From Rhodospirillales bacterium (GTDB taxonomy: Bacteria > Pseudomonadota > Alphaproteobacteria > Acetobacterales > Acetobacteraceae): 32,439 bases of DNA. Both the position numbers and the translations under genes were made by a program. This document shows positions 1 through 23,288 of the stretch, piece by piece. How positions within the stretch are numbered: the stretch's first letter is position 1; every line of letters starts with the position of its first letter. A model generated the notes under the pieces. The model was not told the origin of the DNA. It did not search any database and was given only the letters and a program-made list of their open reading frames with translations. The stretch covers positions 1 to 32,439 of the forward strand of contig JAQGHV010000170.1 in the NCBI GenBank assembly GCA_028288785.1. Reading direction: 5' to 3'.

Positions 1-1
1 C

Positions 2-1561
<1,560 letters not shown>

Positions 1562-1563
1562 GG

Positions 1564-1606
1564 CCAGGGCGCTGCCCTGGACCCGCCAGGATCGGAGCGA
1601 TCCTGG
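1564..1606. terminator. Tandem hairpins between convergent ligA and cysK
   Basis: Two perfect stem-loops lie side by side. The first pairs CCAGGGC with GCCCTGG around a 3-base loop (1564-1580); the second pairs CCAGGATCG with CGATCCTGG around a 3-base loop (1586-1606). They fill the short space between the two convergent stop codons. Neither has a T-run, so a factor-independent terminator is not proven; a transcript-end stabiliser or a bidirectional stop is the likely role. Confidence 0.6.
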
Positions 1607-1622
1607 ACCGCTGGGGTTGGCG

Positions 1623-2594
1623 CTAAAATCCCTCAAACAGGTCCGTCGAGAGATAGCGCTCGGCGAAAGACGGGGCGATGCCGACCACCAGCTTGCCCGC
1701 CATGGCCGGCTCCCGCGCGACCTGGATCGCGGCGTGCAGCATTGCGCCGGAGGAGATGCCGATCGGCAGGCCCTCCAGGCGCGCGCAGCGCCGCGCCGCT
1801 GCGAGTGACTCACGCTCCGAAACCCGCATGACCCCATCGAGTGCCTCGAGGTCCAGTACTGCGGGACGGAAGCCGGCGCCGATCCCCTGGATGCGATGCG
1901 GACCCGGCTCATCGCCCGACAGCACCGCGCTCTCCGCCGGCTCCACCCCGATCACCCGCAAGCCCGGCCGGCGCGGCTTCAAGGTGTGCGCAATGCCGGT
2001 GAGGGTGCCGCCAGTTCCGATCCCGCCGACCACGGCATCGACCGCGCCGTCGCTATCCACCCAGATTTCCTCCGCCGTGGTGGTGGCGTGGATGTCGGGA
2101 TTGGCGGGGTTGTCGAATTGCCGCGGCATCCAGGCGTCCGGCGTCTCCGCGACGATGGCCTCGGCGCGCGCGATGGCGGCGGCCATGCCTTGCTTGGCCG
2201 GGGTTAGCACCAGCTCGGCGCCCATGAGACGCATCATCTTGCGCCGCTCGATACTCGCGCCGTCCGGCATCACGACGATCAGGCGATAGCCCTTCGCAGC
2301 GGCAACGAAGGCGAGCGCGATGCCGGTATTGCCCGAGGTCGGCTCCACCAGGATAGTGCGCCCGGCTGCGATCAGGCCATGACGCTCCGCCGTCTCGACC
2401 ATCGCGAGCCCGATGCGGTCCTTGACGGAGCCGAGCGGATTGAAGAACTCAAGCTTCAGCGCGATGCGCGCGGCAAGCCCATCCGCCGCCGCCAGCCGCG
2501 GCAGCAGCACGAGCGGCGTGGCGCCGACCGTCTCCAGCACGCTGGCGAAAAGGCGCCCGCGCGCCAGGATCGGAGGGGGAGTTACGTCGGCCAT
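1623..2594 (-). CDS. cysK: Cysteine synthase A (O-acetylserine sulfhydrylase)
   Basis: A PLP enzyme of the last step of cysteine synthesis, turning O-acetylserine and sulfide into cysteine and acetate in the cytoplasm. The PLP lysine is K58 in NPLGSVKDRIG; the substrate loop TSGNTG is at 86-91; the phosphate-binding GIGTGGTLTG loop, RIQGIGAGFRP and the late GISSGA serine motif follow in family order. The end, ERYLSTDLFEGF, matches the typical CysK tail. At 323 residues it is the usual length, without a CBS domain. It lies 54 bases downstream of the hydrolase on the same strand, so it may be read with that gene or from its own promoter; I see no clear promoter. CysM is the alternative, but the motifs favour CysK. 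Confidence 0.93.
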   Translation of the reverse strand: MADVTPPPILARGRLFASVLETVGATPLVLLPRLAAADGLAARIALKLEFFNPLGSVKDRIGLAMVETAERHGLIAAGRTILVEPTSGNTGIALAFVAAAKGYRLIVVMPDGASIERRKMMRLMGAELVLTPAKQGMAAAIARAEAIVAETPDAWMPRQFDNPANPDIHATTTAEEIWVDSDGAVDAVVGGIGTGGTLTGIAHTLKPRRPGLRVIGVEPAESAVLSGDEPGPHRIQGIGAGFRPAVLDLEALDGVMRVSERESLAAARRCARLEGLPIGISSGAMLHAAIQVAREPAMAGKLVVGIAPSFAERYLSTDLFEGF

Positions 2595-2648
2595 CGCGGT
2601 TCCATATCACGGCTTCGGATTGTGGAAAGCACCGCGTGTCGCGGCGCC

Positions 2649-3404
2649 CTATCCAAGCACCGCGAGCGCGTCCTTCAGATTCTGCACGGGATCGCGCCCA
2701 GGTCCCCCGCTCACGCAAGCGAGATGGCTGCCCTGCCGCGCCAGGCTCTTCGCGCCGGGGATGATGGCGCTGCTCACGGGCACCAGGCCATCGCTCGGCC
2801 CGGCCCCGCGCGCCTGCATCCAGGCGGCGGCGATGGCATAGGCGCGGTCACGGCCATGGGCACCCTTGGTCAGGACGGTGGTCGCGACGCAGACCACCGG
2901 GATCTGCGTGAGAAGCGCCGCAATCGCCTTCGCGTGCGTCGTCATCCACGCCCCGCGGCGTGCGGTGGTGAGGTCGCGCACGCCCTCTCCGCTGCCGATC
3001 TTGAGCAGGCGCGTCAGGCTCATGGCAGTGCCATCGAACACCGGCGTGGTGGTCACGAGATCCGCGATCGGGCTGCCGAAGAAGGTTGACTGCAGGGCGA
3101 TGAAGCCGGCACAGCGATCGGCGGTCTCCGGCTCCATCAGCGCAGCAAGGGCTTCGAGGCCGCCCTTGCTGTGCGCGATGATCAGCGGCGGGCGGGGTTC
3201 GGCGGCGATGGCGACGCGCAGCGCGAGGGCGTTGCGGATGATCGGCTCGGCGGTCGGAAGCTTCGCTACGGCGACATGGGCCCCCTCCTCCCGCAGCCAG
3301 GTGGCGAGTCCGTGCATGTAGTCGATGCCGATCGGGCGCAGCGCCGCCATCACCTCGCCCATCAGGCCATGAACAAGAAGGATGCGCTGCCCGGCAAGCG
3401 TCAC
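2649..3404 (-). CDS. Alpha/beta-hydrolase (putative esterase/lipase)
   Basis: A 251-residue alpha/beta-hydrolase-like protein. ILLVHGLMG near the N-terminus is the oxyanion-hole HG motif, and IIAHSKGG carries the likely nucleophile S79 in the class elbow. An acid near DGLVP and the histidine in QGSHLACV would complete the triad. No signal peptide is seen, so it is probably cytoplasmic. The open frame runs upstream to 3872, but that part lies inside the aminopeptidase gene and is arginine-rich noise. I choose the GTG at 3404 because it overlaps the upstream TGA as GTGA, a usual translational-coupling arrangement, and because the fold begins directly after it. The substrate is unknown. Confidence 0.8.
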   Translation of the reverse strand: MTLAGQRILLVHGLMGEVMAALRPIGIDYMHGLATWLREEGAHVAVAKLPTAEPIIRNALALRVAIAAEPRPPLIIAHSKGGLEALAALMEPETADRCAGFIALQSTFFGSPIADLVTTTPVFDGTAMSLTRLLKIGSGEGVRDLTTARRGAWMTTHAKAIAALLTQIPVVCVATTVLTKGAHGRDRAYAIAAAWMQARGAGPSDGLVPVSSAIIPGAKSLARQGSHLACVSGGPGRDPVQNLKDALAVLG

Positions 3405-5200
3405 AGCGGCGCGCAGGCGGCGTCGAGCCAGGCGGCGGTGGCGGCGTCCTCGATCAGCGGTCCGATCTCGGCCACGACGCGTGCGTGGTAGCCGTCGATC
3501 CAGCTGCGCTCCGCCGGCGTAAGCAGGGACGCGTCGATCAGCGCGCGGTCGAAGGGGGCGAGCGTCAGGGTCTCGAAGTCGAGGAAGGGGCGGGTCGCGC
3601 CAGGCCGGTCCGTGCGGCGCACGAGGAGCAGGTTCTCCAGCCGGATGCCGTATTCGCCGGTCGCGTAGAAGCCGGGCTCGTCGGACAGAATCATGCCTTC
3701 GCGGATGGGAACCGGGCGGGCGGCGCGGCTGAATGCCACCGGGCCCTCGTGGACGGACAGGTAGCTGCCGACGCCGTGGCCGGTGCCGTGGTCGAAATCC
3801 TCGCCGGCATCCCAGAGCGGGCGGCGCGCGATCGCGTCGAGATGAGGGCCCGCGACGCCTTCGGGGAAGCACAGCGTGGCGAGCGCGATGTGGCCGCGCA
3901 GGACGCGCGTGGCTCGCGCACGGAGCAAGGCCGGCGCGGGTCCCGGGCCGGTCCAGATCGTGCGGGTGATGTCGGTGGTGCCATCAGCGTATTGCGCCCC
4001 GCTGTCGAGCAGGAAGCATTCATCGGGCGTGATGGTGCGGTTGCTTTCGGGGCTTGCGCGGTAGTGGACGATGGCGCCGTGCGGGCCGCTCCCCGCGATC
4101 GCCGGGAAGCTCTCGCCGCGGAACAATGGGCTCCTGGCGCGCTCGGCGAGCAAGGCTTCAGCGGCGGCGATTTCGGTCAACGTGCCGGTGGGCGCCATGG
4201 CCGCGAACCAGGCGAGGAAGCGCACCATGGCGGCGCCGTCGCGGCGATGCGCGTCGCGTGCGCCATCCTGCTCGGTGGGGTTTTTGGAGGCGCGCGGCAG
4301 GCGGCAGGGGTCCTCGGCCAGGTGCAGTACGGCACCGGCGGCACGGAGGTGGCGCGTGATGGCGGCTGGTGTCGCGTCGGCGTCGATCCGCACGCATTGG
4401 CCGCCCAGGGCCTCGAGCGCGGGCAGGAACTCGCTGCGTGGACGCAGCCGCACCGCGTTGCCGAGATGGGCACGCACCTCCGCATCGGCGCGGCCGGGAT
4501 CGATGAACAGGTCGACCGCGCCGTTGCGGTTGGCGATGGCGAAGGCGAGCGCGAGCGGCGTGAAGGGCACGTCATGGCCGCGAATGTTCAACAGCCAGGC
4601 GCTCGACGCCGGGTCGGCCAGGACCACGGCGTCTTCCCCGGCCGCGGCAAGGGTGGCGGCGAGCTCGGCCCGCTTCGCGCCCGCCTCGCGCCCGGCAAAG
4701 CGGGCGGGGTGGACGATGAGGGGGGAGGCCGGCAGCGGCGGTCGGTCAGGCCAGGCTGCGTCGATCGGGTTGGCGTCTGTTGGCACGAGGGTGATCCCGG
4801 CGGCTTCAAAGCGGGCAAGCGCGGGCTCGGCATAAAGCCAGGGATCAAAGCCGATGCGCATTCCCGCGGCATGCGCCTTCAACCATTCGGCCGGCGGCTC
4901 CTCGGTGAGGTGACGACGCTCCCACAAGGCGGGATCGGTCTGCTGGGTGACCTGGAGGGTGTAGCGGCCATCGGTGAAGATCGCGGCGCGGTCGCGCAGC
5001 ACGATCGCCATGCCGGCGCTGCCGGTGAAGCCGGTCAGCCATGCGAGACGCTCGGCGCTGGCGGGGACGTATTCGCCGAGATGTTCATCCGCACGCGGAA
5101 CCAGCATGGCGTCGATTCCGGTAGTGTCGAAGCGGGCGCGAAGGTCGGCAAGGCGTTGGGCAACGGTCACGGCGGCGGCGTCCTCACGGGTTGTTACCAT
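3401..5200 (-). CDS. Xaa-Pro aminopeptidase, M24 family (long form)
   Basis: A cytoplasmic metallo-aminopeptidase that removes an N-terminal residue preceding proline. At 599 residues it is the long three-domain form, with two creatinase-like N-terminal domains and a C-terminal pita-bread domain. All five metal ligands are visible: D399 and D410 (DSGAQYADGTTD), H475 (HGTGHGVG), E508 (DEPGFY) and E522 (RLENLLLV). GPHGAIVHY supplies the upstream active-site histidine. The ATG at 5200 is the first plausible start; a strong hairpin sits just before it. The gene overlaps the hydrolase by 4 bases. A 595-residue frame opposite it on the plus strand is an artefact of GC-rich codon use. Confidence 0.93.
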   Translation of the reverse strand: MVTTREDAAAVTVAQRLADLRARFDTTGIDAMLVPRADEHLGEYVPASAERLAWLTGFTGSAGMAIVLRDRAAIFTDGRYTLQVTQQTDPALWERRHLTEEPPAEWLKAHAAGMRIGFDPWLYAEPALARFEAAGITLVPTDANPIDAAWPDRPPLPASPLIVHPARFAGREAGAKRAELAATLAAAGEDAVVLADPASSAWLLNIRGHDVPFTPLALAFAIANRNGAVDLFIDPGRADAEVRAHLGNAVRLRPRSEFLPALEALGGQCVRIDADATPAAITRHLRAAGAVLHLAEDPCRLPRASKNPTEQDGARDAHRRDGAAMVRFLAWFAAMAPTGTLTEIAAAEALLAERARSPLFRGESFPAIAGSGPHGAIVHYRASPESNRTITPDECFLLDSGAQYADGTTDITRTIWTGPGPAPALLRARATRVLRGHIALATLCFPEGVAGPHLDAIARRPLWDAGEDFDHGTGHGVGSYLSVHEGPVAFSRAARPVPIREGMILSDEPGFYATGEYGIRLENLLLVRRTDRPGATRPFLDFETLTLAPFDRALIDASLLTPAERSWIDGYHARVVAEIGPLIEDAATAAWLDAACAPL

Positions 5201-5204
5201 TCAT

Positions 5205-5232
5205 TTGCATGCTTCCACAGGAAGCCATGCAA
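5205..5232. promoter_or_regulatory. Imperfect 12-bp palindrome directly before the aminopeptidase start
   Basis: TTGCATGCTTCC and its complement flank a 3-base ACA loop, with one bulged base at 5226. The element ends only 4 bases from the minus-strand ATG at 5200. In the mRNA the arm nearest the start reads GGAAGC, the only Shine-Dalgarno-like stretch there, so a hairpin would hide it. As DNA it could equally be an operator for this gene or the divergent DUF1127 gene. Confidence 0.5.
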
Positions 5233-5377
5233 TATCGTCGTGGCTCTGTTGCTGCATTGCCGCATCGATTAGCTCGTAAGCCTACCTACATTCCCGGTGT
5301 GGCCAATGCTCCGACGCCGGGATGGTAATCACCATTCGGCGTGGACGGGGCATCCCGCAACCGAGGATTATTTTACC

Positions 5378-5740
5378 ATGGACGCCCGTCTCACCGAGAG
5401 TGAGCTGAATTCCCTCCGCCCCAGCATCGGCATGCGTGACGCAGCCGAGCGCGAGGCCATCCGCGTTGCCGCGACGACCGAAGGCGATGCGCAGTTCGTG
5501 CAGAAGCTTGGCCGCGGCCTGCGTGCCGGCGCGACTGCCTTCGCGACGATCGCCCGCGCCGTCGCCAGCTTCCCCGCGAAGCGCCGCGCCTATAGCGACC
5601 TGCTCGCGCTCAATTCCCGCGAGCTGGCGGATATCGGTCTGACGCGCGCCGACATCCCGCGTGTATTCGACCCGGACTTCATGGCGCAAAAGCCCCGTGC
5701 CCCGGTGGCCATGCGTTCGCGCCAGCCGCAACTCGCCTGA
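5378..5740 (+). CDS. DUF1127 (YjiS-like) domain protein
   Basis: A 120-residue protein with the short DUF1127 motif at about residues 68-97 (KRRAYSDLLALNSRELADIG). Such basic, cytoplasmic proteins are common in alphaproteobacteria; small members have been linked to RNA turnover and to phosphate or carbon metabolism, but the role of this one is unknown. The frame is open from 5297, but the ATG at 5378 is preceded by a GAGG ribosome site and starts a more credible sequence. The first 60 residues, rich in Ala, Arg and Glu, lack a recognisable domain. It is divergent from the aminopeptidase. Confidence 0.85.
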   Translation: MDARLTESELNSLRPSIGMRDAAEREAIRVAATTEGDAQFVQKLGRGLRAGATAFATIARAVASFPAKRRAYSDLLALNSRELADIGLTRADIPRVFDPDFMAQKPRAPVAMRSRQPQLA

Positions 5741-5746
5741 GCGACG

Positions 5747-5778
5747 GCAACCGGTGAGGCGTAGGCCTCGCCAGTTGC
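5747..5778 (+). terminator. Hairpin after the DUF1127 gene
   Basis: GCAAC plus GGTGAGGC pair with GCCTCGCC plus GTTGC around a 4-base loop; there is one mismatch (C5752/A5773) and one G-T pair. A second, weaker hairpin (5779-5807) follows. It starts 6 bases after the stop codon. There is no T-run, so termination is likely but not certain. Confidence 0.5.
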
Positions 5779-5846
5779 AGCGACGCATAGCAGCCGCGCG
5801 TTGCTGATACTTCTCTTGGCGCCGCACCATCCTGCCCTATGGCAGA

Positions 5847-7040
5847 ATGACACGTAGCGCCTGGATTGTAATATTCGCGGCCTCCCTTTCGGTGAGCCTG
5901 GCGCTCGGCATTCGACAGACATTCGGCCTGTTCCTGCTGCCGCTCGGCGTCGAGCATGGCGTGACCGCGACGGCCATCGGTCTGTCGGTCGCGACTCATA
6001 ACCTGCTCTGGGGATTGACCCAGCCCTTCACGGGGGCCCTGGCGGACAAGTTCGGCGCCGGGCGCATCGCGCTCATTGGCGCGGGATTTTACGCGTGCGG
6101 GCTGACGCTGGTCGCCGCCTACCCCTCCGGGCTCACCGTGTTCATCGGCATTGGGATCTTGACGGGCCTTGGCGTCGCCTGCGCCGGCGCCGGAACGGTG
6201 CTCGCCGCCGTGGCGCGCGCGGTACCGGCGCACCAGCGCGGCAACGCGATGGGGCTCGCTTCGGCTGGAGGCTCCTTCGGGCAGGCGGCGATGGTGCCGC
6301 TGGCCATGGGGAGCATCAACGCCTTCGGCACACAGACGGCCCTGTTGATCCTGTGCTCGACCCTGCTGCTCGCCTTCATCGCCGCGCCGCGCCTGGAATG
6401 GCGGCCGACGCCGCGCGTGGGGCCACCGGCGGTGGGGATGTCCGGCCTTCCGGCTTTGGCGCGCGTCGCCTTCGCCGACAAGGGGTTCGCGCTGCTCACG
6501 CTGGGGTTCTTCGCCTGCGGGTTCCAGCTCGCCTTCCTGACCACGCACCTGCCGGCGCACCTGGCGCTGTGCGGCATGCCGGCATCATTGGGTGCGACGG
6601 CACTGATGCTGGTGGGGCTGTTCAACATCCCCGGCTCCTGGCTGTGCGGAAGGCTTGCCAGCAGCGGTCGACCCGAGCGCGCGCTGGGCGTCATCTACCT
6701 GATCCGCACGGTGGCGATCGCGATCTTCGCCAGCAGCGTGCCGAGCGAATGGGGAACCATGATCTTCGCCGCCGTGATGGGATTCGTCTGGCTGGGCACC
6801 ATCCCACTGACCTCGGCGGCGATCGCGCGGCGCTTTGGCGTGGCGGATTTGGGAGCGCTGTACGGGCTGTGCTTCTTCTCGCACCAAGTAGGCGGCTTCT
6901 TGGGTGCGGGCTCCGGCGCCATCCTCGTGGATGTAAGCGGGAGCTACGCCGCCTTCTGGCCGGTGATGGTGATCGTCGGGCTGGCGGCGGTTGGGTTCAA
7001 CTGGACCATCAGGGCGCCGGCTCGCGCGGTGGCGGCCTAA
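5847..7040 (+). CDS. Major facilitator superfamily transporter
   Basis: A 397-residue inner-membrane permease with about 12 hydrophobic segments in two halves. The loop after the second segment reads GALADKFGAGR, the MFS motif A. The opening (IRQTFGLFLLPLG) resembles the monocarboxylate/oxalate-type MFS group of proteobacteria, but nothing fixes the substrate. It has no partner enzyme or regulator next to it. The start is the ATG at 5847; an upstream out-of-frame ATG at 5839 reads only three codons and ends TGA, overlapping this start, which could slightly couple translation. A family A repeat follows the stop. Confidence 0.88.
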   Translation: MTRSAWIVIFAASLSVSLALGIRQTFGLFLLPLGVEHGVTATAIGLSVATHNLLWGLTQPFTGALADKFGAGRIALIGAGFYACGLTLVAAYPSGLTVFIGIGILTGLGVACAGAGTVLAAVARAVPAHQRGNAMGLASAGGSFGQAAMVPLAMGSINAFGTQTALLILCSTLLLAFIAAPRLEWRPTPRVGPPAVGMSGLPALARVAFADKGFALLTLGFFACGFQLAFLTTHLPAHLALCGMPASLGATALMLVGLFNIPGSWLCGRLASSGRPERALGVIYLIRTVAIAIFASSVPSEWGTMIFAAVMGFVWLGTIPLTSAAIARRFGVADLGALYGLCFFSHQVGGFLGAGSGAILVDVSGSYAAFWPVMVIVGLAAVGFNWTIRAPARAVAA

Positions 7041-7043
7041 GAA

Positions 7044-7086
7044 GAAGCGAGGCCGGGGCAAAGAATTTCCGTGGGCCCATTTTTAT
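7044..7086 (+). repeat. Family A terminator-like repeat, copy 1 (degenerate)
   Basis: GAGGCCGGGG, then AAAGAATTTCC, then GGGCCCATTTTTAT. It follows the MFS stop codon in the direction of transcription. The stem has decayed compared with other copies, but a small CCCAT/ATGGG hairpin spans its T-run. Confidence 0.55.
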
Positions 7087-7176
7087 GGGTGCGGTGGCGA
7101 CGCTTGGGGCGATATGGCTCGCGAGCCCAATGACCGCTCCCTCAGACGGCAACCGCCCTCAAGGCCGAGCCATAGA

Positions 7177-7229
7177 TAAAGATAAAAGAAAGGGGTCCGG
7201 GGAAATTCCCTTCCCCGGCCTTCTTCTCA
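7177..7229 (-). repeat. Family A terminator-like repeat, copy 2
   Basis: On the minus strand it runs directly on from the TGA of the oxidoreductase gene: GAAGAAGGCCGGGG, loop containing GGGAATT, then CCCCGG and a T-rich CTTTCTTTTATC. The CCGGGGA/TCCCCGG stem is perfect (7198-7204 with 7212-7218). Its position and orientation fit a terminator for the oxidoreductase, and it may also stop the convergent MFS transcript. Confidence 0.7.
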
Positions 7230-8657
7230 AAGATGCTTCAGCCAGCTCACCACCCGCTTCACCGCCGGACTCAGCAGCTTCGGCGTGTAGAACTCCCCCG
7301 CCGCGCGCTTGCCCATTTCGGCCAGGGTCGGATACGGCAGCACCACCCCGGCGAGCGCGGAAAGGCGCAGCTTCCTCCCGATCATCAACCCATAGGTGCC
7401 GGCCATCTCCCCCGCACCCGGCGCCAGGATTGAGGCGCCCAGCAGCATGCCTTTCTTGGTCGCGACCAGCTTGATCAACCCGCCGTCGATGCCCTCCGCC
7501 GCCGCGCGGTCATTCTCTACCAACGGCCAGCGCAGGATGGCGAGTTCCGCATGGCCCGCCGCGCGCGCCTCCGCCTCGGTCAGGCCGACCTGCGCGATCT
7601 CGGGGTCCGTGTAGGTGATCCGAGGCAGCGCCGCGTAGTCCACCTTCGCCGGCAGCCGGAAGATCATCCGTCGCGCCAACACGCCGGCATGCTGGCTTGC
7701 CACATGGGTGAAGGCGCGCGGGCCAATCCCCGCTGGGTCCGCGATATCGCCGCAGGCGAATACCCGGCGGTTGCTCACGCTGCGCAGCCCGGCATCGGTC
7801 GTGATCCCGCGCTTGGTTGAATCCACCCGCCCCGCCACCAGGTCGAGCGCGGCCAGGCGTGGCGCGCGCCCGGTCGCCAACAACAAATGCGAAGCGGTGA
7901 TCTGGCTGCCGTCGCCGAGCATGATGGCGATCTCGGCACCATCGCGCGCCACACGCTCCACCGCGACGCCCTCATGGAAGACGACACCCTCACCCACCAG
8001 CACGTCGCGCAGGCCGGCGACCAACTCGGGGTCCTCCCGGCTGGCGATGCCGGCGGCGGCCTCGATCACCGTGACGCGGCAGCCGAGCCGGACATGCGCC
8101 TGCGCCATCTCCAGCCCGATCGGGCCGCCGCCGATGATCGCGAGGTGCTCCGGCGCCTCCTCCAGCTCGAACAGCGTCTCGTTGGTGAGGTAGCGCACAT
8201 CGCCGAGGCCCGGGATCGGCGGCACGATGGCGGCACTGCCGGCCGCGATCACGCAGCGGCGAAAGCGGATGCGCCTTGTGCCGGCCTCCACCTCGTCCGG
8301 CCCGATGAAATGCGCGGAGGCCTCGATCACATCGACGCCCATGCCGCGAAACCGCGCCGCGCTGTCGTTCGGCGCGATCCGCGTAATCGCACCCTTCACA
8401 TGGGCGCGGACACCGGCCCAATCGATCTCGGGGGCGGAGACCTTCACGCCGAAGCGGTGCGCGCCGCGCGCCTGGGCGGCCGCGTGGCCCGCAGCGAGCA
8501 TGGCCTTCGAGGGGACGCACCCGTAGTTGAGGCAGTCACCGCCCATCTTGCCGCGCTCGATGAGGACCACCTTCAGGCCGAGGCCCGCGGAGATGGCCGC
8601 CACGGACAGGCCGGCGGCGCCGGCGCCGATTACGAGGACATCAGCCAGATCGGGCAT
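7227..8657 (-). CDS. FAD-dependent pyridine nucleotide-disulfide oxidoreductase (mercuric reductase/Lpd-like)
   Basis: A 476-residue flavoprotein of the class I disulfide oxidoreductases. The FAD dinucleotide motif GAGAAG is at 11-16, the redox-active pair C42/C47 is in GGDCLNYGCVPSK, the NAD(P)H fold is near IIGGGPIGLEMA, and the second FAD motif contains FACGDIAD. The usual C-terminal HPT, whose His acts as the general base in lipoamide dehydrogenase and glutathione reductase, reads YPT here (Y442), while the partner E447 remains. It is therefore probably not a true E3 subunit; no 2-oxoacid dehydrogenase genes adjoin it. An open frame extends to 8735, but those 26 codons cross a family A repeat, so I use the ATG at 8657. 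Confidence 0.88.
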   Translation of the reverse strand: MPDLADVLVIGAGAAGLSVAAISAGLGLKVVLIERGKMGGDCLNYGCVPSKAMLAAGHAAAQARGAHRFGVKVSAPEIDWAGVRAHVKGAITRIAPNDSAARFRGMGVDVIEASAHFIGPDEVEAGTRRIRFRRCVIAAGSAAIVPPIPGLGDVRYLTNETLFELEEAPEHLAIIGGGPIGLEMAQAHVRLGCRVTVIEAAAGIASREDPELVAGLRDVLVGEGVVFHEGVAVERVARDGAEIAIMLGDGSQITASHLLLATGRAPRLAALDLVAGRVDSTKRGITTDAGLRSVSNRRVFACGDIADPAGIGPRAFTHVASQHAGVLARRMIFRLPAKVDYAALPRITYTDPEIAQVGLTEAEARAAGHAELAILRWPLVENDRAAAEGIDGGLIKLVATKKGMLLGASILAPGAGEMAGTYGLMIGRKLRLSALAGVVLPYPTLAEMGKRAAGEFYTPKLLSPAVKRVVSWLKHL

Positions 8658-8667
8658 TCGGACTCCT

Positions 8668-8724
8668 AAAAACAAAAAGATCGGGGAAAAGAATTCCCCG
8701 AACCCAATTCTTTTCTTTTTTATC
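8668..8724 (+). repeat. Family A terminator-like repeat, copy 3, upstream of rpmH
   Basis: Perfect stem TCGGGGA/TCCCCGA (8681-8687 with 8695-8701) around AAAGAAT, followed by AACCCAATTC and a long T-rich run. It lies between two divergent genes, with the T-run pointing towards rpmH and ending about 24 bases before the rpmH -35 box. It could shield that promoter from transcription coming from behind. Confidence 0.7.
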
Positions 8725-8747
8725 ACTTGGTTCAAAACCGCCCAAGG

Positions 8748-8776
8748 TTGACGCCTGGGGGCGGTCCTCCCTATAC
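8748..8776 (+). promoter_or_regulatory. Sigma70-type promoter for rpmH-rnpA-yidD-yidC-engB
   Basis: TTGACG at 8748-8753 and CTATAC at 8771-8776, separated by exactly 17 bases. This would start transcription near 8783 and give a leader of about 55 bases before the rpmH GTG. It is the clearest housekeeping promoter in the window. Confidence 0.75.
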
Positions 8777-8838
8777 GTCCGGGCCTTGCCGCCGGTTACC
8801 CTGAGGGGTGCGGGGAGCGGCAACCAGGAGATTGCGTC

Positions 8839-8973
8839 GTGAAGCGTACTTATCAGCCATCCAAACTCGTCCGGAAGCGCCGCCATGGCTTCCGCGCCCG
8901 CCTGTCCAGCGTGGGCGGCCGCAACATCCTGGCGAACCGCCGGTCCAAGGGCCGCAAGAAACTCTCCGCCTGA
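8839..8973 (+). CDS. rpmH: 50S ribosomal protein L34
   Basis: A 44-residue basic protein of the large ribosomal subunit. It begins (M)[18 protein letters not shown] and ends with a [12 protein letters not shown]-type tail, which is diagnostic for L34. The start is a GTG at 8839, preceded by the ribosome site CAGGAG at 8825-8830. It heads the conserved rpmH-rnpA-yidD-yidC cluster and follows the promoter at 8748. Confidence 0.97.
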
Positions 8974-8997
8974 GCAGGCCTCGGCCGGACATGCCCA

Positions 8998-9354
8998 ATG
9001 GCGCCACGGCCCCCTCGATTGAAGCGCCGGCGAGACTTCCTCCGCGTCGCTGGTAAAGGCAAGCGCGCCGCCCGTCCCGGGCTGGTGCTGCAGGCCCTGC
9101 CCGCGTTGACGGGCGAAACCCGCGTTGGCTTTACCGTGACCAAGAAGGTCGGCAATGCCGTGGTGCGCAACCGCGCCAAGCGCCGGCTGCGCGAAGCCGC
9201 CCGCCTCGCCATTCCCGTGCTGATCGCCGAAGGTGCCATGGAGCCTGGCTGGGACCTGGTGCTGATCGGTCGCGACGCCACCGGCAAGCGGGACTTCGCG
9301 ACGTTGCAAGGCGACCTCCGCGGTGCGCTGCGCCAGGCGGGCGTAACCCGATGA
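8998..9354 (+). CDS. rnpA: Ribonuclease P protein component
   Basis: The small basic protein subunit of RNase P, which helps the RNA subunit bind pre-tRNA leaders. At 118 residues it has the usual length; the start region [11 protein letters not shown] and the RNR motif within [18 protein letters not shown] are typical. The ATG at 8998 is 24 bases after rpmH. An ATG at 8991 is in another frame. No strong ribosome site precedes it, so it may be translated by coupling from rpmH. The stop codon overlaps the yidD ATG. Confidence 0.95.
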
Positions 9355-9611
9355 GCGTCCTCGGCCAGGTCGACAAGGCCACCGCCTTCGTCCTCAAGGG
9401 CTGCGTCCACACCTACCGCTACACGCTGCGCGGCATCATCGGCCCTAACTGCCGGTTCGAGCCGCATTGCAGCGCCTACGCGATCGAGGCCCTGACCGAA
9501 CACGGCGCGCTCCGCGGCAGCATCCTTGCCGCCCGCCGCGTGCTGCGCTGCCACCCCTGGCACCCGGGCGGTTATGACCCGGTGCCGCATCCCCCGTCGC
9601 CAAAAGGCTGA
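9351..9611 (+). CDS. yidD: Membrane protein insertion efficiency factor YidD
   Basis: An 86-residue protein thought to help the YidC pathway of inner-membrane insertion. The family core is present: [19 protein letters not shown], then [18 protein letters not shown]. The ATG overlaps the rnpA stop as ATGA. Ten bases separate its stop from yidC. Confidence 0.95.
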
Positions 9612-9621
9612 TCCGCCCGCC

Positions 9622-11397
9622 ATGGACCAAAAGAACCTCATTTTGGCGATCGCGCTTTCGATCGGCATCCTGCTGACCTTCAACCTGCTGATCAAGCCGA
9701 CGCCGACGGTGCAAACAGCACAGGCACCGCAATCCTTGCCCGCGCTGCCCGCCACGCCCGCGTCACCCGCCGGCGGGCAGAGCGTGACCACCACTCCCGG
9801 CGACGCCACCGCCGCAGCCGCGCAGCGCGGCCCGGCGCCCCGCATTCCCGTCCAGGGCCCACGCGTCCAGGGCAGCCTCAACCTGCGCGGTGCGATGCTC
9901 GATACGCTGGAACTCTCCGGCTACCGGGAGACGCTGGAGCCCAACTCGCCGCTCGTGCAGCTGTTCGCGCCGCGCGAATCCGCTGCTGGCTATTTTGCGC
10001 AATGGGGCTGGAGCGCCGCCGGCGGCGGCACACGCGTGCCCGACGGCAACACCGAATGGGCGGCGAGCGCGCCTCGCCTCGCCCCCGACAGCCCGGTCAC
10101 GCTGACCTGGGACAATGGCCAGGGCCAGGTCTTCTCGATCGCGCTGACCTTGGACGATCGCTACATGGTGAGCGTCACGCAGAGCGTACGCAACACCGGC
10201 GCCGAAACCGTCTCCGTCCTGCCCTGGGCGCGCATCCGGCGCGAGCACACGCCGGTGTTGGCGGGCTTCTACATCCTCCATGAAGGCTTCGTCGGTGTGC
10301 TCGACGGGCGACTGCAGGAATGGAGCTACTCCAGCGCCAAATCCGAAGCCGCCAAGCGGCCGGGTAGCGCGGCCTTCGAGCTCACCTCGAGCGCGGGTGG
10401 CTGGGCCGGCATCACCGACAAGTACTGGCTCGCCGCGCTGATCCCGTCGCGCGAGACTCCGATGCGCACCGCCTTCCGCCATGTCTCCGAGGGTGGCGTG
10501 GACCGCTGGCAGGCCGATCTGGCCGCCGCCTCGCCCCAGGACGTCGCCGCGGGTTCTACGACCACCATCGCGACGCGGCTTTTCGCCGGCGCGAAGGAAG
10601 TCGCCACGCTCGATCTCTATGAGCGCACGCTGGGGATCACCGATTTCGACAAAGCCGTGGATTTCGGCTGGTTCTACTTCCTGACCAAGCCGTTCTTCTA
10701 CGCCATCGACTTCCTGTTCGACCTATTCGGCAATTTCGGCGTCGCCATCCTGGTCTTCACGCTCGGCATCAAGATCTTGTTCTTCCCGCTGCAGAACAAG
10801 GCCTATCACTCAATGGCCAAGATGAAGATCCTGGGCCCCAAGATGACGGAAATCCGTGAGCGCAACACGGAAGACCCGCGCAAGGCCCAGGCCGAGATGA
10901 TGGCGTTGTACAAGACCGAGAAGGTGAACCCGGTCTCCGGCTGCCTGCCGATCCTCATCCAGATCCCGGTCTTCTTCGCGCTCTACAAGGTGCTGTTCGT
11001 CACCATCGAGATGCGCCAGGCGCCCTTCGTGGGCTGGATCCGCGATCTCTCGGCGCCAGACCCGACCAACCTGTTCAATCTGTTCGGTCTGCTGCCGTTC
11101 GACCCGATGCAGTACTCCTCCTTCCTGCACCTGCCGGCCTGGGCGCTCATCATGGGCATCACGATGTTCGTGCAGCAGAAGTTGAACCCGCAGCCGACCG
11201 ACCCGATCCAGGCAAAGCTGTTCACCTACATGCCGATCCTGTTCACCTTCATGCTCGCCTCGATGCCGGCGGGGCTGGTGATATACTGGAGCTGGAACAA
11301 CCTGCTCTCGATCGCGCAGCAGGCCTACATCACGCGGCAGGAGCGGGCCGAGCGCCAAGCCGTGCGCAAAAACCTCGCGCTCGCGAAAAAGGTGTGA
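9622..11397 (+). CDS. yidC: Membrane protein insertase YidC
   Basis: The inner-membrane insertase (Oxa1/YidC family), acting alone or with SecYEG. It has 591 residues. A first membrane segment lies at about 7-23 (LILAIALSIGILLTFNLLI), followed by a Pro/Ala-rich linker, a large periplasmic beta domain to about residue 340, then the conserved membrane core with five segments. The cytoplasmic loop with MAKMKILGPKMTEIRERN and the segment GCLPILIQIPVFFALYKVLF are signatures. The open frame starts earlier (9526), but the ATG at 9622 begins the standard MDQKN N-terminus. Its TGA overlaps the engB GTG. Confidence 0.97.
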   Translation: MDQKNLILAIALSIGILLTFNLLIKPTPTVQTAQAPQSLPALPATPASPAGGQSVTTTPGDATAAAAQRGPAPRIPVQGPRVQGSLNLRGAMLDTLELSGYRETLEPNSPLVQLFAPRESAAGYFAQWGWSAAGGGTRVPDGNTEWAASAPRLAPDSPVTLTWDNGQGQVFSIALTLDDRYMVSVTQSVRNTGAETVSVLPWARIRREHTPVLAGFYILHEGFVGVLDGRLQEWSYSSAKSEAAKRPGSAAFELTSSAGGWAGITDKYWLAALIPSRETPMRTAFRHVSEGGVDRWQADLAAASPQDVAAGSTTTIATRLFAGAKEVATLDLYERTLGITDFDKAVDFGWFYFLTKPFFYAIDFLFDLFGNFGVAILVFTLGIKILFFPLQNKAYHSMAKMKILGPKMTEIRERNTEDPRKAQAEMMALYKTEKVNPVSGCLPILIQIPVFFALYKVLFVTIEMRQAPFVGWIRDLSAPDPTNLFNLFGLLPFDPMQYSSFLHLPAWALIMGITMFVQQKLNPQPTDPIQAKLFTYMPILFTFMLASMPAGLVIYWSWNNLLSIAQQAYITRQERAERQAVRKNLALAKKV

Positions 11398-12068
11398 GCG
11401 CGCCGCTTCCCGCCGGCGGGCTTTCCGAAGCGCGCGACGATGGCGAAAGGGCCGCGCTGATCGAGGCCGGACGGCTGCTGTTCGCGCGGCCGTGCACCTT
11501 CTTCTACGCGGCGCAGAAGCTTGAGCAGTTGCCACCAACGGACAAGTTGGAGATCGCCTTCTGTGGTCGCTCCAACGTGGGCAAATCCTCGCTGGTCAAT
11601 GCGCTCACCAGGCAGAACGCGCTCGCCCGTGTTTCCAACACGCCGGGCCGCACACGCCAGCTGAACTTCTTCGACCTTGGCGAGCGCATGACGCTGGTGG
11701 ACATGCCTGGCTATGGCTACGCCCAGGCCGCGAAGAGCGTGAAGGCGGATTGGCAGGGCCTGATGTTCGGCTTCCTGCGCGGACGCCCGACCTTGCGCCG
11801 CGTGTTCCTGCTGCTCGACGCCCGCGTCGAGACCAAGACCGCCGACACGGCCGCGATGAAGCTGCTGGACGAGGCCGCCGTCACCTTCCAGATCGTGATC
11901 ACCAAGGCCGACGACACCAAGCCCGCCCGCCTCGCCGCGCGCCAGGAGGAGGCCCAGGCCCTCGCGCGCCGGCACATCGCGGCGCATCCGCTCGTGCTGA
12001 CGACCAGCAGCCAGACCGGCGCCGGCATGGACGAACTTCGCGCCGAGATCGCAGCCCTGCTGAATTAA
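11394..12068 (+). CDS. engB: Ribosome biogenesis GTP-binding protein EngB (YsxC/YihA)
   Basis: A cytoplasmic TrmE-Era-EngA-EngB-type GTPase needed for assembly of the 50S subunit. It has 224 residues: G1 GRSNVGKSS at 58-66, G2 in TPGRTRQ, G3 DMPG, G4 TKAD and G5 near TSSQTGAG. The GTG at 11394 overlaps the yidC stop as GTGA, indicating coupled translation at the end of the rpmH operon. Its TAA forms the first bases of a strong terminator stem. Confidence 0.95.
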   Translation: MSAPLPAGGLSEARDDGERAALIEAGRLLFARPCTFFYAAQKLEQLPPTDKLEIAFCGRSNVGKSSLVNALTRQNALARVSNTPGRTRQLNFFDLGERMTLVDMPGYGYAQAAKSVKADWQGLMFGFLRGRPTLRRVFLLLDARVETKTADTAAMKLLDEAAVTFQIVITKADDTKPARLAARQEEAQALARRHIAAHPLVLTTSSQTGAGMDELRAEIAALLN

Positions 12069-12109
12069 CTTCAGCAGTCGTGAAGAACGACCGCTGAAGT
12101 TAGATTTTT
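12066..12109 (+). terminator. Intrinsic terminator of the rpmH-engB operon
   Basis: TAACTTCAGCAGTCG (12066-12080) pairs with CGACCGCTGAAGTTA (12088-12102), 15 positions with one mismatch, around a 7-base loop; GATTTTT follows. The engB stop codon is the base of the stem. Confidence 0.93.
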
Positions 12110-12119
12110 CATCCCGTCA

Positions 12120-12210
12120 AGCGCCGGGCGCCGCCTCCGGCGGCTTGGCTCGCCGCACTACCGGCGGCGGCCATTCGGCCTTGCGACGCTGCGCGCCGAT
12201 TTGGCCCCCA
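12120..12210 (+). repeat. Family B repeat, copy 1 (after the engB terminator)
   Basis: Starts AGCGCCGGGCGCC, contains the hairpin GCCGCCTCCGGCGGC, then GGCTTGGCTCGCCG, ACTACCGGCGGCGGCC, ATTCGGCC. It closely matches the two copies at 26385-26566 and begins 10 bases after the terminator T-run. A second partial unit start (GGTGCCGGGCGC) is seen at 12211. Confidence 0.75.
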
Positions 12211-12280
12211 GGTGCCGGGCGCAAGGGTCCACGCGCCGAAATTCCGTGACATCTCTCCCATTGCGGGCCAGGGACGGGGA

Positions 12281-13570
12281 ATGCCGCCGAAGACGCCCAC
12301 AAGCCCACCGCGACCGCTTGCCGACCGGGTCCGTCCCACGACCCTGGCCGAGGTGGTCGGCCAGGAGCAGGTCCTCGGCCCCGGCGCGCCGCTTGGTCGC
12401 ATGGTCGCGGCCGGCGCGGTCACCTCCATCATCCTCTGGGGCCCACCGGGGACCGGGAAGACCACCATCGCGCGACTGCTCGCGCAGCAGAGCGGCCGGC
12501 ACTTCGTGGCGATCTCGGCGATCCAGAGTGGCGTCGCCGAGCTGCGCCGCGTCTTCGAGGATGCGCGCAAGGCACGCGCCGCCGGCACCGGCACCCTGCT
12601 GTTCTGCGACGAGATCCACCGCTTCAACCGCGCCCAGCAGGACGGATTTCTTCCTGTGGTGGAGGACGGCACCGTCGTGCTGGTGGGCGCGACCACGGAA
12701 AACCCCTCCTTCGAATTGAACGGTGCGCTGCTCTCGCGCTGCCAGGTCCTCGTGCTGAAGAAGCTCGGCGAGGCGGCGCTCGAGCAGCTTCTTGCGCGCG
12801 CCGAGGCCGAAGAGGGCCGCGCCCTTCCCCTGCTGCGGGAGGCGCGCCAGGCCATGCTCGACCTGGCCGGCGGCGATGGCCGGTACCTGCTCAACATGGC
12901 GGAGCTCGTCTACAGCGCCGGCGAGGACGCGCCTCTCGGCCTTGAAGAGATGGGCCAGTTGCTGCAGCGCAGGATGCCCACGCACGACAAGGCCGGCGAC
13001 GGGCACTACGACCTGCTGAGTTGCTTTCACAAGGCGCTTCGCGGGTCGGACGTCCATGCCGCGCTCTATTACGCCGCGCGCATGATGGTCGCGGGCGAAG
13101 CCGGCGAGACCGTGTTCCGCCGCCTCGCCTGCGCCGCCGCCGAGGATGTCGGCATGGCCGACCCGCAGGCGGTGCCGCAGGTGATCTCGGCCTGGGACGC
13201 GTACCTCCGCATCGGCTGGCCGGAAGGCAAGCTGTTCATGGCCCAGGCCATCACCTACGTGGCGACCGCGCCGAAATCCAACGCGTCGTACATGGGCTTC
13301 ACGGCCGCGCTGGAAGCCGCCGAACGCACCGCCCACCTGCCCCCGCCGCTCAGCATCCTCAACGCGCCGACACGGATGATGAAGGAACTCGGCTACCACG
13401 CCGGCTACCGCTACGACCACAATCAGCCCGACGCCTATGCCGGCCAGGAATTCTTTCCCGAACAGCTCGGGCCGCAGGAGTTCTACGTGCCGAATGAGCG
13501 AGGGTTCGAGAGGGACGTGAAGAAGCGGCTGGAGTATTGGGCGGGGCTCAAGGAGAAGCGGAAGAAGTAA
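12281..13570 (+). CDS. rarA: Replication-associated recombination protein A, AAA+ ATPase (RarA/MgsA)
   Basis: A clamp-loader-like AAA+ ATPase of the RarA/MgsA/WRNIP1 family that acts at stalled replication forks. It has 429 residues: Walker A GPPGTGKT at 54-61, Walker B with D110-E111 (FCDEIHRF), sensor 1 GATTENPSF, and the C-terminal tetramerisation part with HYDLLSCFHKALRGSD and the late NAPTRMMKELGY. A GTG at 12212 would add 23 residues, but it lies in the family B repeat; the ATG at 12281 follows GGGACGGGGA and gives the usual MPPK-like start. It is probably transcribed apart from engB, since a terminator and a repeat lie between. Confidence 0.94.
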   Translation: MPPKTPTSPPRPLADRVRPTTLAEVVGQEQVLGPGAPLGRMVAAGAVTSIILWGPPGTGKTTIARLLAQQSGRHFVAISAIQSGVAELRRVFEDARKARAAGTGTLLFCDEIHRFNRAQQDGFLPVVEDGTVVLVGATTENPSFELNGALLSRCQVLVLKKLGEAALEQLLARAEAEEGRALPLLREARQAMLDLAGGDGRYLLNMAELVYSAGEDAPLGLEEMGQLLQRRMPTHDKAGDGHYDLLSCFHKALRGSDVHAALYYAARMMVAGEAGETVFRRLACAAAEDVGMADPQAVPQVISAWDAYLRIGWPEGKLFMAQAITYVATAPKSNASYMGFTAALEAAERTAHLPPPLSILNAPTRMMKELGYHAGYRYDHNQPDAYAGQEFFPEQLGPQEFYVPNERGFERDVKKRLEYWAGLKEKRKK

Positions 13571-13614
13571 GGCCGGGAACAGGAATTTCGCCGGGCCTCA
13601 TTCTTTTGTTTTTG
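13565..13614 (+). repeat. Family A terminator-like repeat, copy 4 (after rarA)
   Basis: Starts at the rarA stop codon: AAGGCCGGG, ACAGGAATTTCG, CCGGGCCTC, then ATTCTTTTGTTTTTG. Outer pairing AGGCC/GGCCT remains, with an internal mismatch. Same orientation as rarA, so probably its terminator. Confidence 0.65.
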
Positions 13615-13909
13615 TCCGGGATGCACGGGAAGGACGTTCACAAGTTTTGGGACCGAGAGCCCAGAGATGTGAATGCCTCAAGCGTGGCGAGCCGGCGCCA
13701 GAGACCGCGTCCGCTTGATGGCACCACATCAAAGGCGCGCTCCTCGCCCGAGCGGGGCAACGCCGAAAGTCAGGTGAACCGAGCCGATGAAGGCCGCGCC
13801 CGCCATTTCATGGTACTCTTTCGAGGCGCGCCTCCGCGCCTCGCGAGGCCGAATGGCCGAACGCCGGTAGTCCGGCGGGCCAAGCGCGCGAAGCGCACGC
13901 TCGGCACCT
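13615..13909. other. Non-coding or repeat-derived intergenic stretch
   Basis: No convincing gene. An open frame from ATG 13621 to 13911 (96 codons) begins MHGKDVHKFWDREPRDV and ends in an Arg-rich tail, but that tail is the reverse complement of family B repeat, so I treat the frame as chance. The first 18 bases after 13620 (TGCACGGGAAGGACGTT) recur with one change at 19481-19497 after the Bug receptor gene, which suggests that this stretch is a longer dispersed repeat. Confidence 0.45.
13822..13908 (-). repeat. Family B repeat, copy 2 (divergent; after SBP terminator)
   Basis: On the minus strand it starts GGTGCCGAGCG and shares GCTTGGC, CGCCGGACTACCGGCG and GGCCATTCGGCC with the other copies. 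It begins 9 bases after the T-run of the terminator at 13918-13948, in the same direction. It ends in a different hairpin: CGAGGCGCG/CGCGCCTCG at 13822-13843. Confidence 0.6.
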
Positions 13910-13917
13910 GAAGGCAT

Positions 13918-13948
13918 AAAAAAGCGCCCATGCACTACCGCATGGGCG
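13918..13948 (-). terminator. Intrinsic terminator of the AapJ-like gene
   Basis: On the minus strand CGCCCATGC pairs with GCATGGGCG (13940-13948 with 13925-13933) around a 6-base loop, then C and six T. The gene's TAG stop codon (13935-13937) is in the loop, so the stem includes the last coding bases. Confidence 0.92.
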
Positions 13949-14963
13949 GTGGGTAGTGCAGGCCGCCGCGGTTCCACAGGTTGTTGATCCCGCGCGGGAT
14001 GCCGATCGGGGTGATGTTGCGCTCCCACATCTCCGCGAAATTGCCCACCTGGCGGACGATCTGCACCGCCCAGTCGTTGTTCACGCCGAGCTGGCGGCCA
14101 AGCTCGCCGGTGCGGCCGAGGAAGCGCTGCACGTCGGGGTTCGGGCTGTCGTTGAAGGTGCTCAAATTCTGCGATGTGATGCCCAGTTCCTCCGCCGTCA
14201 GCTGTGCGAAAATGCTCCAGCGCACGATGTCGAAGAAGCGTTGGTCGCCCTTGCGCACCACCGGCCCCAGCGGCTCCTTCGAGATGATCTCGGGCAGCAG
14301 CAGGTAGCGCTCGGCATTCGGGCCCTCGGCGGCGCGGAAGGAGGCGAGCGAGGACGCATCGGTGGTGTAGGCATCGCAGCGGCCAGAGCGGAAGGCAGCG
14401 CGCAGTTCCTCGATGCTCTCGATCACCACCGGGGTAAAGCGCATCCGGTTGGCGCGGAAGTAATCGGCCATGTTCAGCTCCGTGGTGGTGCCCGGCGAGA
14501 CGCAGACGGTTGCGCCATCGAGCTGCGTGGCCGCAGTCACACCTGATTCGCGGCGCACCATGAAGCCTTGGCCGTCATAGAAATTGACACCGGCGAAGCT
14601 GAGGCCGAGCGAGGCCTCGCGGCCCAGCGTCCAGGTCGTGCTGCGCACCAGGATGTCGACCTCACCGGATTGCAGCATGGTGAAGCGCTGCTGCGTGCTG
14701 GCAGGCACGAACCGCACCTTCGTTGCATCGCCGAGTATGGCGGCCGCAACCGCACGGCAGGTATCCACGTCGATGCCCCGCCACTCGCCCCGGCTGTCGG
14801 GGGCGGAGAAGCCCGCGGTCGCAGGTGCCACGCCACACAGCAGCGCCCCGCGCGCTCGGATGGCGGCGACGGTGTCGGCCGGCGCCGGCGATTGCGCCGC
14901 CGAGGGCAAGGCCGCAGCCAGGAGCGCAAGCGCGCCGACAGCGAAAGTGAGCAGACGGTTCAT
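13935..14963 (-). CDS. AapJ/BztA-like amino-acid ABC transporter binding protein (stand-alone)
   Basis: A 342-residue periplasmic solute-binding protein of family 3. A Sec signal peptide covers about residues 1-23, with likely cleavage after SAA. The mature part carries the general L-amino-acid receptor signature: LCGVAPATAGFSAPDSRGEW, GIDVDTCRAVAAA, LQSGEVDILVRSTTWT and NFYDGQGFMVRR. Two cysteines (VCVSPG and RCDAY) may form a disulfide. A GAGAAGGAA ribosome site precedes the ATG. Neither permease nor ATPase genes adjoin it, unlike aapJQMP operons, so it must use components encoded elsewhere or act as a sensor. A close paralogue lies at 25307. Confidence 0.9.
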   Translation of the reverse strand: MNRLLTFAVGALALLAAALPSAAQSPAPADTVAAIRARGALLCGVAPATAGFSAPDSRGEWRGIDVDTCRAVAAAILGDATKVRFVPASTQQRFTMLQSGEVDILVRSTTWTLGREASLGLSFAGVNFYDGQGFMVRRESGVTAATQLDGATVCVSPGTTTELNMADYFRANRMRFTPVVIESIEELRAAFRSGRCDAYTTDASSLASFRAAEGPNAERYLLLPEIISKEPLGPVVRKGDQRFFDIVRWSIFAQLTAEELGITSQNLSTFNDSPNPDVQRFLGRTGELGRQLGVNNDWAVQIVRQVGNFAEMWERNITPIGIPRGINNLWNRGGLHYPPPMR

Positions 14964-15238
14964 TGGCTATTCCTTCTCCCTCGAAGCGAAATGCGCTGAG
15001 GGCGATCGTCGCCGACAACGCCTGGTCCCACGAACAGACAAAGCCGGAGCACGCTGCGTCGGCGCGCGCAGTCTCAGCGGCGGCACACGGCCATGTCCAG
15101 CGTGATCGGTGGGCGTTCCTCGGCACCCGCCCGTCGCATTGCCTCGTATTTAGGCGCCGTCCCGTAAGAACTGCCTTGCGGTCCAGCCCGGAACAACGCG
15201 AGGATATCCTCAAGAAAATAACCAAGGGGGGAATGTTC
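14964..15238. promoter_or_regulatory. Divergent intergenic region between two binding-protein genes
   Basis: It must hold the promoters of the AapJ-like gene (minus) and the ABC operon (plus), but I see no confident -35/-10 pair. The ABC operon side has a perfect 12-base palindrome, GAGGATATCCTC (15200-15211), about 27 bases before the start; this may be an operator or chance. AAGGGGGG at 15224-15231 is the ribosome site. Confidence 0.4.
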
Positions 15239-17469: not shown

Positions 17470-18284
17470 AGCGCATTCTCGGTAAGCTGGGCTTCGCGAT
17501 TTCCGTGCTGCTGCTGATCTCGCCCGCGATCATGATCTTCCTCTGGATGCTCTCACTCTCGCTTAAGAACGAGCTCGACAACACCGCCTATCCGCCGGTC
17601 TTCATCCCCTCGCCGCCCACACTCGGCAACTACGCCGAGGTCTTCGCGCGCAACGACTTCCTGCTCTACGCGTGGAACAGCGTGGTCGTCAGCTTCTCCG
17701 CCACCGGCATCGCACTGCTGCTCGGAGTCCCCGCCGGCTACGGCATCGCCAAGATGCGCGCTACGCGCCTCGCCGGCCTCATCCTCATCGCGCGCATCAC
17801 CCCCGGCCTGTCCTACCTCATCCCCCTTTTCCTCATGTTCCAGTGGCTTGGCCTCACCGGTACCCTCGTGCCGATCGTGATCACGCACCTGGTCATCACG
17901 CTGCCCATCGTGGTCTGGGTAATGATCTCATTCTTCGAAGGCCTGCCCGGCGAGCTCGAAGAAGCCGCCCTCGTCGACGGCGCCACCATCTGGCAAGCCT
18001 TCCGCCACGTCGCCATGCCCCTCGCACGACCCGGCATCACCGTGGCCTGCATCCTCAGCTTCATCTTCTCCTGGAACAACTTCATCTTCGCCGTCGTCCT
18101 CGCCGGCCGCGAAACCCGAACCCTCCCTGTCGCCGTGAACAACATGCTCACCTTCGAACAGATCTCCTGGGGCCCCCTCTCCGCCGCCGCACTGCTCGTG
18201 ACCGCCCCCGTCCTCATCCTCACCCTCCTCGCCCAAAAACAAATCGTCGCGGGGCTGACCGCAGGCGGCGTGAAGGGGGCGTAG
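17466..18284 (+). CDS. CUT1-type ABC transporter permease (MalG-like)
   Basis: A 272-residue partner permease with six membrane segments and the EAA loop EEAALVDGATIWQAFRHVAM. The ATG at 17466 overlaps the stop of the previous gene; the open frame extends 8 codons further but this start is the natural one. No ATP-binding protein gene follows: the next gene is an unrelated receptor 230 bases away. The ATPase must be encoded elsewhere, as happens with shared MsmX/UgpC-type ATPases. Confidence 0.92.
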   Translation: MKRILGKLGFAISVLLLISPAIMIFLWMLSLSLKNELDNTAYPPVFIPSPPTLGNYAEVFARNDFLLYAWNSVVVSFSATGIALLLGVPAGYGIAKMRATRLAGLILIARITPGLSYLIPLFLMFQWLGLTGTLVPIVITHLVITLPIVVWVMISFFEGLPGELEEAALVDGATIWQAFRHVAMPLARPGITVACILSFIFSWNNFIFAVVLAGRETRTLPVAVNNMLTFEQISWGPLSAAALLVTAPVLILTLLAQKQIVAGLTAGGVKGA

Positions 18285-23276: not shown

Positions 23277-23288
23277 GGCGAGGCACCC

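Follow-up and report, generated by a model that had tools for sequence, protein, structure and literature searches.

REP palindrome dimers are the nearest known kind of element to the repeat family described here. In the available text of PMC3733652, REP and BIME sequences, including the CGTC-tagged REPs of alphaproteobacteria, are small palindromes of high copy number that lie mostly in codirectional or convergent gaps, close to stop codons or supplying them, and that form inverted dimers with unlike arms and structured classes of spacer, with single copies being remnants in one species. The same text reports that the CGTC repeats have no dedicated transposase and are missing from Acetobacteraceae. 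REPINs, in the accounts available, are inverted hairpin doublets moved by a RAYT (Y1) transposase. Intrinsic (Rho-independent) terminators consist of a hairpin followed by a T-rich tract after the stop codon. In Neisseria and Haemophilus, a repeated uptake sequence doubles as the terminator stem and exists in species dialects. RepRanger uses the T-rich tail to tell terminators from REPs, and REPs located no more than 15 nt from a stop codon stall ribosomes according to work cited in the same article (PMC12306157, available text).

The locus analysed here is a stretch of 32,439 nucleotides from a Rhodospirillales bacterium (the window), for which the original prediction was a family of five dispersed, terminator-like palindromes. 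This genome contains well over a hundred look-alike hairpins that have spread by copying, many of them in facing pairs at gene junctions. As high-copy extragenic palindromes in inverted dimers with spacers, they are REPs in the broad sense, and they resemble the elements of PMC3733652, as its available text describes them, in small size, gap preference, proximity to stop codons, unlike arms, structured spacer classes and the presence of single copies. Unlike the tagged REPs of that text, they have AAGG rather than a GTAG or CGTC tag before the stem, a tail of ACCCC and a T-run in place of CCA, and about 55 conserved nt per arm; some arms of Plastoroseomonas arctica begin GACGACAGCAT, which is not a tag at the stem. 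The inverted hairpin doublet is the likely mobile unit, as in REPINs, but no Y1 transposase was found in three genomes of the genus. The family works like a REP dimer but does not fit the tagged superfamilies or the REPIN-RAYT system. With intrinsic terminators it shares the hairpin, the T-rich tract after stop codons and a covarying stem, and it differs from them in being sequence-conserved, repeated and provided with ACCCC between stem and T-run. Like the uptake-sequence terminators, it is a repeat predicted to double as a terminator stem and it has species dialects; unlike them, it hardly ever lies within an ORF, and its unit of spread is a doublet containing a spacer. The arms carry marks of both of the classes that RepRanger separates (PMC12306157, available text). 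These elements are probably short, non-autonomous, REP-like mobile repeats in which the doublet is the spreading unit and the arms are putative terminators.

All five copies in the window were recovered with a covariance model trained on 54 arms from several genomes, four of them strongly (41.5–66.1 bits); these scores are unfiltered matches, and the arm at 30147–30202 is itself among the 54 model sequences. The copies at 7044 and 7177, originally taken as separate palindromes, are the two arms of one doublet (7041–7229) between convergent stop codons, those of an MFS-type gene (TAA, 7038–7040) and an oxidoreductase gene (TGA, 7229–7227). Its left arm (7043–7091, plus strand; 16.0 bits, E 0.041) is decayed and gave no stem in the fold (z 0.01), while its right arm (7173–7228, minus strand; 66.1 bits) is intact. 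A single arm at 8671–8725 (plus strand, 54.1 bits; the 8668 copy) occupies the gap between the diverging starts of genes for a FAD/NAD-dependent oxidoreductase (ATG 8657) and ribosomal protein L34 (GTG 8839); P. arctica has an arm in the same position, and no match was found in the orthologous P. hellenica stretch. The 13565 copy (13563–13618, plus strand, 41.5 bits) lies directly 3′ of the stop of an MgsA-type AAA+ ATPase gene and is a single arm in the window where P. arctica has a doublet. The 30150 copy (30147–30202, minus strand, 60.2 bits) lies in a divergent gap between a gamma-glutamyltranspeptidase gene (minus) and a P-loop-kinase-like frame (plus, ATG 30212; Pfam matches below cut-off). 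Gene calls came from a custom caller that missed genes shorter than 50 codons and made errors near 28982–30754. Three copies (7044, 7177 and 13565) follow a gene, as had been stated, and the 8668 and 30150 copies follow none; all three, rather than the two claimed, are directly at the stop codon. The common arm, loop, ACCC and T-run were confirmed, with conservation extending beyond that description to AAGG before the stem and TTCTTTT.TTTTTG after it. Rfam gave no match at the gathering score in the window and three chance-level matches around 7000–7260.

The significance of the family comes from genome counts, the window alone being weak. Within the window, a loose 22-base pattern was found five times against 1.78 expected, a count reached in 5 of 100 shuffles, and a generic terminator scan of positions 1–20000 gave 11 sites against 10.1 expected, as a chance resemblance of GC-rich hairpins would also produce. 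However, the 25-base pattern CGGGGNAARGAATTYCCCCGNACCC, with up to three mismatches, matched 134 times in the 4.11 Mb genome and never in the reversed control. A genome search with a covariance model had been proposed with the original prediction, with a lack of genome-wide enrichment named as the outcome that would speak against it; the search gave at least 150 matches in the window's genome (G000), at least 150 in P. arctica (G001), 12 in P. hellenica (G002) and none in G018. Chance resemblance is refuted by these counts and has next to no probability left. At up to one mismatch, the core was found 175 times in this genome, 205 times in G001, 12 times in G002 and 15 times in G013, and six of 40 relatives had any match.

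Occurrence of the family in Roseomonas-group Acetobacteraceae is patchy. In a scan of one genome per species, the 80 stretches listed, out of at least 102, all came from this group (Plastoroseomonas, Pseudoroseomonas, Roseomonas sp. and strain AT-5844). Exact core counts in 13 Roseomonas-group genomes ranged from 12 to 286, the highest being that of Roseomonas sp. E05, and 15 of 299 genomes of the family, spread over seven of 102 genera, had a core match. Within genus g17, G018 had none and the six other genomes had 37 to 286. Repeated intergenic 12-mers reached at most three gaps in 200 kb of G018, compared with eight in an equal stretch of P. arctica, and the eight convergent gaps displayed from G018 contain unlike hairpins. 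A plasmid search with the doublet returned three records of Pseudoroseomonas and Roseomonas, matching over 39–51 bases each. A literature search, mostly without subscription papers, found nothing on such repeats in Roseomonas. The results add a REP-like family in Acetobacteraceae, the family from which the available text of PMC3733652 reports the CGTC-tagged REPs to be missing.

The arm consensus is AAGGYYGGGGNAANGAATTYCCCCRRACCCCNTTCTTTT.TTTTTG, which comprises an A/G-rich edge, AAGG, the stem GGGG(G/A)AA, a tetraloop NGAA, the matching stem, ACCCC and a T-rich tail. Its fold extends through GG/CC pairs across a bulged A toward the T-tract. Typed consensus arms folded 2.3 and 2.6 sd below shuffles, whereas z for the five window arms ranged from 0.01 to −1.81, so that single copies are unremarkable by energy alone. 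Covariation of the stem was assessed in 54 arms, after six of 60 picked arms were omitted as palindrome-carrying, truncated or odd variants. Two-sided cells numbered 73 against 26.3 expected, and 98.1 % of cells were paired against 87.3 % expected, values that none of 500 shuffles reached. There was no excess of pairs with a two-sided change (three against 2.9 in shuffles) or of further pair types (six against 7.1) among these arms. Six of the nine stem pairs are invariant, partly because the seed pattern demanded them, and since the regex fixes this part of the stem the informative pairs are only 11–32, 12–31 and 17–26. These three pairs swap while the loop and flanking letters are nearly fixed, and both structure and sequence are kept in the arms.

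A variant form of the arm has a palindrome around AAACGTATACGTTT in place of the RRACC stretch that otherwise lies between hairpin and tail, so that two hairpins precede the T-run. This form was seen in 16 of 17 displayed loci, from G000, G001, G041, G047, G137 and G297, and the 17th (L228, G013) has the palindrome in another surrounding. The near-perfect palindrome GNAAACGTATACGTTTNC occupies one fixed place inside the arms at these 16 loci of six genomes (among L229–L244, for example L230, L233 and L240; G001 C2 291630 and 368748) and shows paired changes outside an almost fixed core; possible explanations are binding by a protein or the exchange of a hairpin module.

The arms are organized in doublets. 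All 126 pairs of neighbouring copies less than 300 bp apart face inward (118 after removal of identical ones; identical arms were also removed before the arm counts given below). The spreading unit is about 130–240 bp long and has two arms with tails inward and a spacer between them. With the P. arctica doublet between the TAXI-type and DctM genes as query, the eight best partners were 83–89 % identical over 123–137 bases. The doublet at the trpB-like/trpA junction of this genome matched others at 77–81 % over 162–179 bases in five rows, one being its own inverted repeat, and in further rows at 75 % over 173, 70 % over 195 and 90 % over 73 bases. The window's own doublet matched others only over its intact arm (42–72 bases). 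Doublet spacings cluster near 102, 140 and 211; quantised spacing was considered and dropped because spacers within a length class align as homologous families, an alignment covering the 58 of 118 doublets with both cores detected by regex. Spacers also align across species and often contain palindromes, such as TTGGTGCTGGCTGCGCAGCCAGCACCAA, and no conserved promoter was seen in them by eye.

Two observations concern spacers of particular kinds. Doublets with spacing of about 210 bp at L111, L117, L130, L145 and L146 have a common structured spacer (TGCCGTGTCCACGTG, CAGCGCGACCTT..AAGGTCGCGCTG, GGCGTCCCGCC), which could hold a small RNA or a mobile core of its own. At L032 (G013 C1 748242–748323), two facing arms lie at a distance of just 64 bases and the spacer is complementary along its whole length, which produces one long cruciform-like palindrome.

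Comparison of orthologous gaps indicated that whole doublets come and go. Among 111 gaps compared between P. arctica and this genome, 92 were empty in both, 14 occupied in both and five occupied in one only; the DNA was partly chosen for carrying copies, and these proportions are not genome-wide rates. All five gaps occupied in one species contained whole doublets, whereas the 14 shared gaps comprised eight single/single, four doublet/doublet and two doublet/single cases, from which single arms look like remnants left by the loss of half a doublet. A weak single at G001 C2 14621 (E 5e-3) was not counted as polymorphic, as it fell below threshold in the larger search and a related hairpin is present in both species. 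The 7041–7229 doublet is absent from P. arctica; the sequence there is GCGGCCTAGAC, and the two convergent stops overlap in CTAG at the position of the window's 186 bp gap. This site is unpolarised because the P. hellenica stretch is without the neighbouring gene. At two further sites (G001 C2 180718 and L187 15765), the gap in the other species is unlike and 109–117 bases long, and the empty site is not clean.

The other two events are polarised and indicate that doublets were gained. In this genome, the trpB-like and trpA genes (PALP and Trp_syntA by Pfam) are separated by a doublet in a 190-nt gap (L065, 13602–13791), lying between TGAGC and ATGAGCC such that TGAGC occurs twice and both frames are intact. 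No arm match was found at this junction in any of ten other genomes (nine stretches and P. arctica), seven of which have a 4-nt overlap of the two genes and three of which have gaps of 26, 62 and 124 nt. Similarly, TAXI-type (NMT1_3) and DctM genes are separated by a doublet in P. arctica, while the site had no arm match in the window (a 12-nt gap at 23277–23288), G002, G267, G102 or G013, the last with a longer, unlike gap. By eye, the leader before trpA at the filled site has no clear ribosome-binding site, which makes trpA expression there puzzling.

Spread by copying, as originally proposed, is well supported by the genome-wide copies, by two doublets that match others along most of their length and by the presence or absence of whole doublets at orthologous sites. 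It has been weighed against an account in which the arms are normal intrinsic terminators whose similarity is maintained by selection at each site, for example through a reader protein specific to the lineage or a dialect resembling uptake signals, with no copying involved. Such selection would fit the covarying stem with fixed loop and flanks, the 14 shared among 19 occupied orthologous gaps, and a loop letter that differs by species: G in 33 of 53 copies in this genome, A in 34 of 72 in P. arctica and T in 106 of 154 at other loci, although these are non-independent copies, and records of P. arctica and P. hellenica are among the other loci. However, it is largely refuted by the polarised gains, in which whole doublets with their spacers stand between genes that overlap elsewhere, and it sits poorly with the alignment of spacers across species and the patchiness within genus g17, where one genome has no copies and others have 37 to 286. 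Conservation in place without copying is accordingly improbable. Some copy sites look old: three of 14 genes that carry a 3′ copy at other loci of the Roseomonas group also have one in Plastoroseomonas, against two of 76 genes that carry none; at 5′ ends the figures were one of six and two of 84.

If the doublets are mobile, the source of the enzyme can be considered. In one alternative they are MITEs of a DDE transposase. The inverted arms at both ends of the doublet and the TGAGC on both sides of the trp-site doublet, a motif present once in outgroups, would agree with this. Over 104 doublets, however, there was no clear excess of target duplication (5-mers, 47 against 41.2, with 25 of 200 shuffles as high; 7-mers, six against 2.9, with 10 of 200 as high). 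No transposase and no parent element was found in seven scanned genes (glyoxalase, TctC, S15, TruB, thioesterase, SDR and thiolase) of the nine called between five arm pairs spaced 0.5–2.6 kb apart. The terminal repeats of MITE-type elements do not usually each contain a hairpin, which also counts against this origin; we consider it unlikely, if less so than conservation in place. A REPIN moved by a RAYT transposase would account for inverted hairpin doublets in gene gaps, but PF01797 matched in none of three genus genomes compared with five of 14 control genomes, and the arm consensus has no GTAG tag. This makes a RAYT-driven REPIN highly improbable, although possibly such an enzyme was lost after the spread.

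Under the favoured reading of non-autonomous REP-like repeats, an enzyme provided in trans would insert copies of the doublet at new sites. They would survive where they are least harmful, flush with the end of an ORF, selection being the putative cause of the position bias; loss of half a doublet would leave a single arm. RNA leaving the ORF at an arm would form a hairpin with a U-rich tail, which should bring about intrinsic termination or, failing that, protect the 3′ end. The two arms could terminate transcripts arriving from either side, and the element would travel as a portable end-of-gene signal. A bolder version, which we put forward tentatively and would not bet on, is a selfish mobile terminator doublet that lands exactly at gene junctions, even within a 4-nt stop/start overlap, and splits operons with frames intact, moved by a non-RAYT enzyme and with loop dialects drifting by species.

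Position relative to genes bears on the terminator role. The arms are mostly flush with ORFs and their T-rich side points away from the ORF. For the 173 forward arms toward which a gene ends, the stem was within 15 nt of the stop codon in 125 cases, at 16–30 nt in 32 and further away in 16. All 27 copies on P. arctica contig 2 (380 kb) were intergenic, with two in divergent gaps where gap length predicts 8.4 (P 0.004), four in convergent gaps against 2.4 (P 0.21) and 21 in codirectional gaps against 16.2. Of 176 arms found by regex, 40 were codirectional forward, 60 convergent, 43 facing the start of a codirectional neighbour, 10 divergent and 18 at sequence edges, and five were called inside ORFs, at least one of these (30150 in the window) through an error of the gene caller. 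On the basis of the hairpin, the T-rich tail, the stop-codon position and the scarcity between divergent genes, we infer that the arms act as intrinsic terminators. By analogy with the REPs discussed in PMC12306157, ribosome stalling is a possible further effect.

Several results stand against a simple terminator reading. The mean T content of the 20-base tail was similar in all position classes (10.0–12.0), and thus the tail alone is no proof of terminator use. Forty-three of the 176 arms face a codirectional start, a position that would put them within the 5′ leader of the following gene. In two cases a doublet separates a gene pair whose members overlap or almost adjoin in most of the other genomes examined; termination there may be partial, or transcription may restart downstream. 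The generic scan also detected a stem with an immediate T-run at 7197–7218 and at 8701–8681, on the strand opposite to the arm, so that arm action in both directions, or mainly in reverse, is possible.

The filled and empty sites at the trpB-like/trpA junction and between the TRAP-type transporter genes are natural pairs in which to ask whether a mobile repeat ends transcription and to what extent operon splitting is tolerated. More generally, the family suggests that sequence-conserved terminators can signal mobility. The window also contains an unrelated, strong, intrinsic-terminator-like hairpin at 13923–13948 on the minus strand, CGCCCATGC..GCATGGGCG followed by CTTTTTT, located at the stop of a solute-binding-protein gene.
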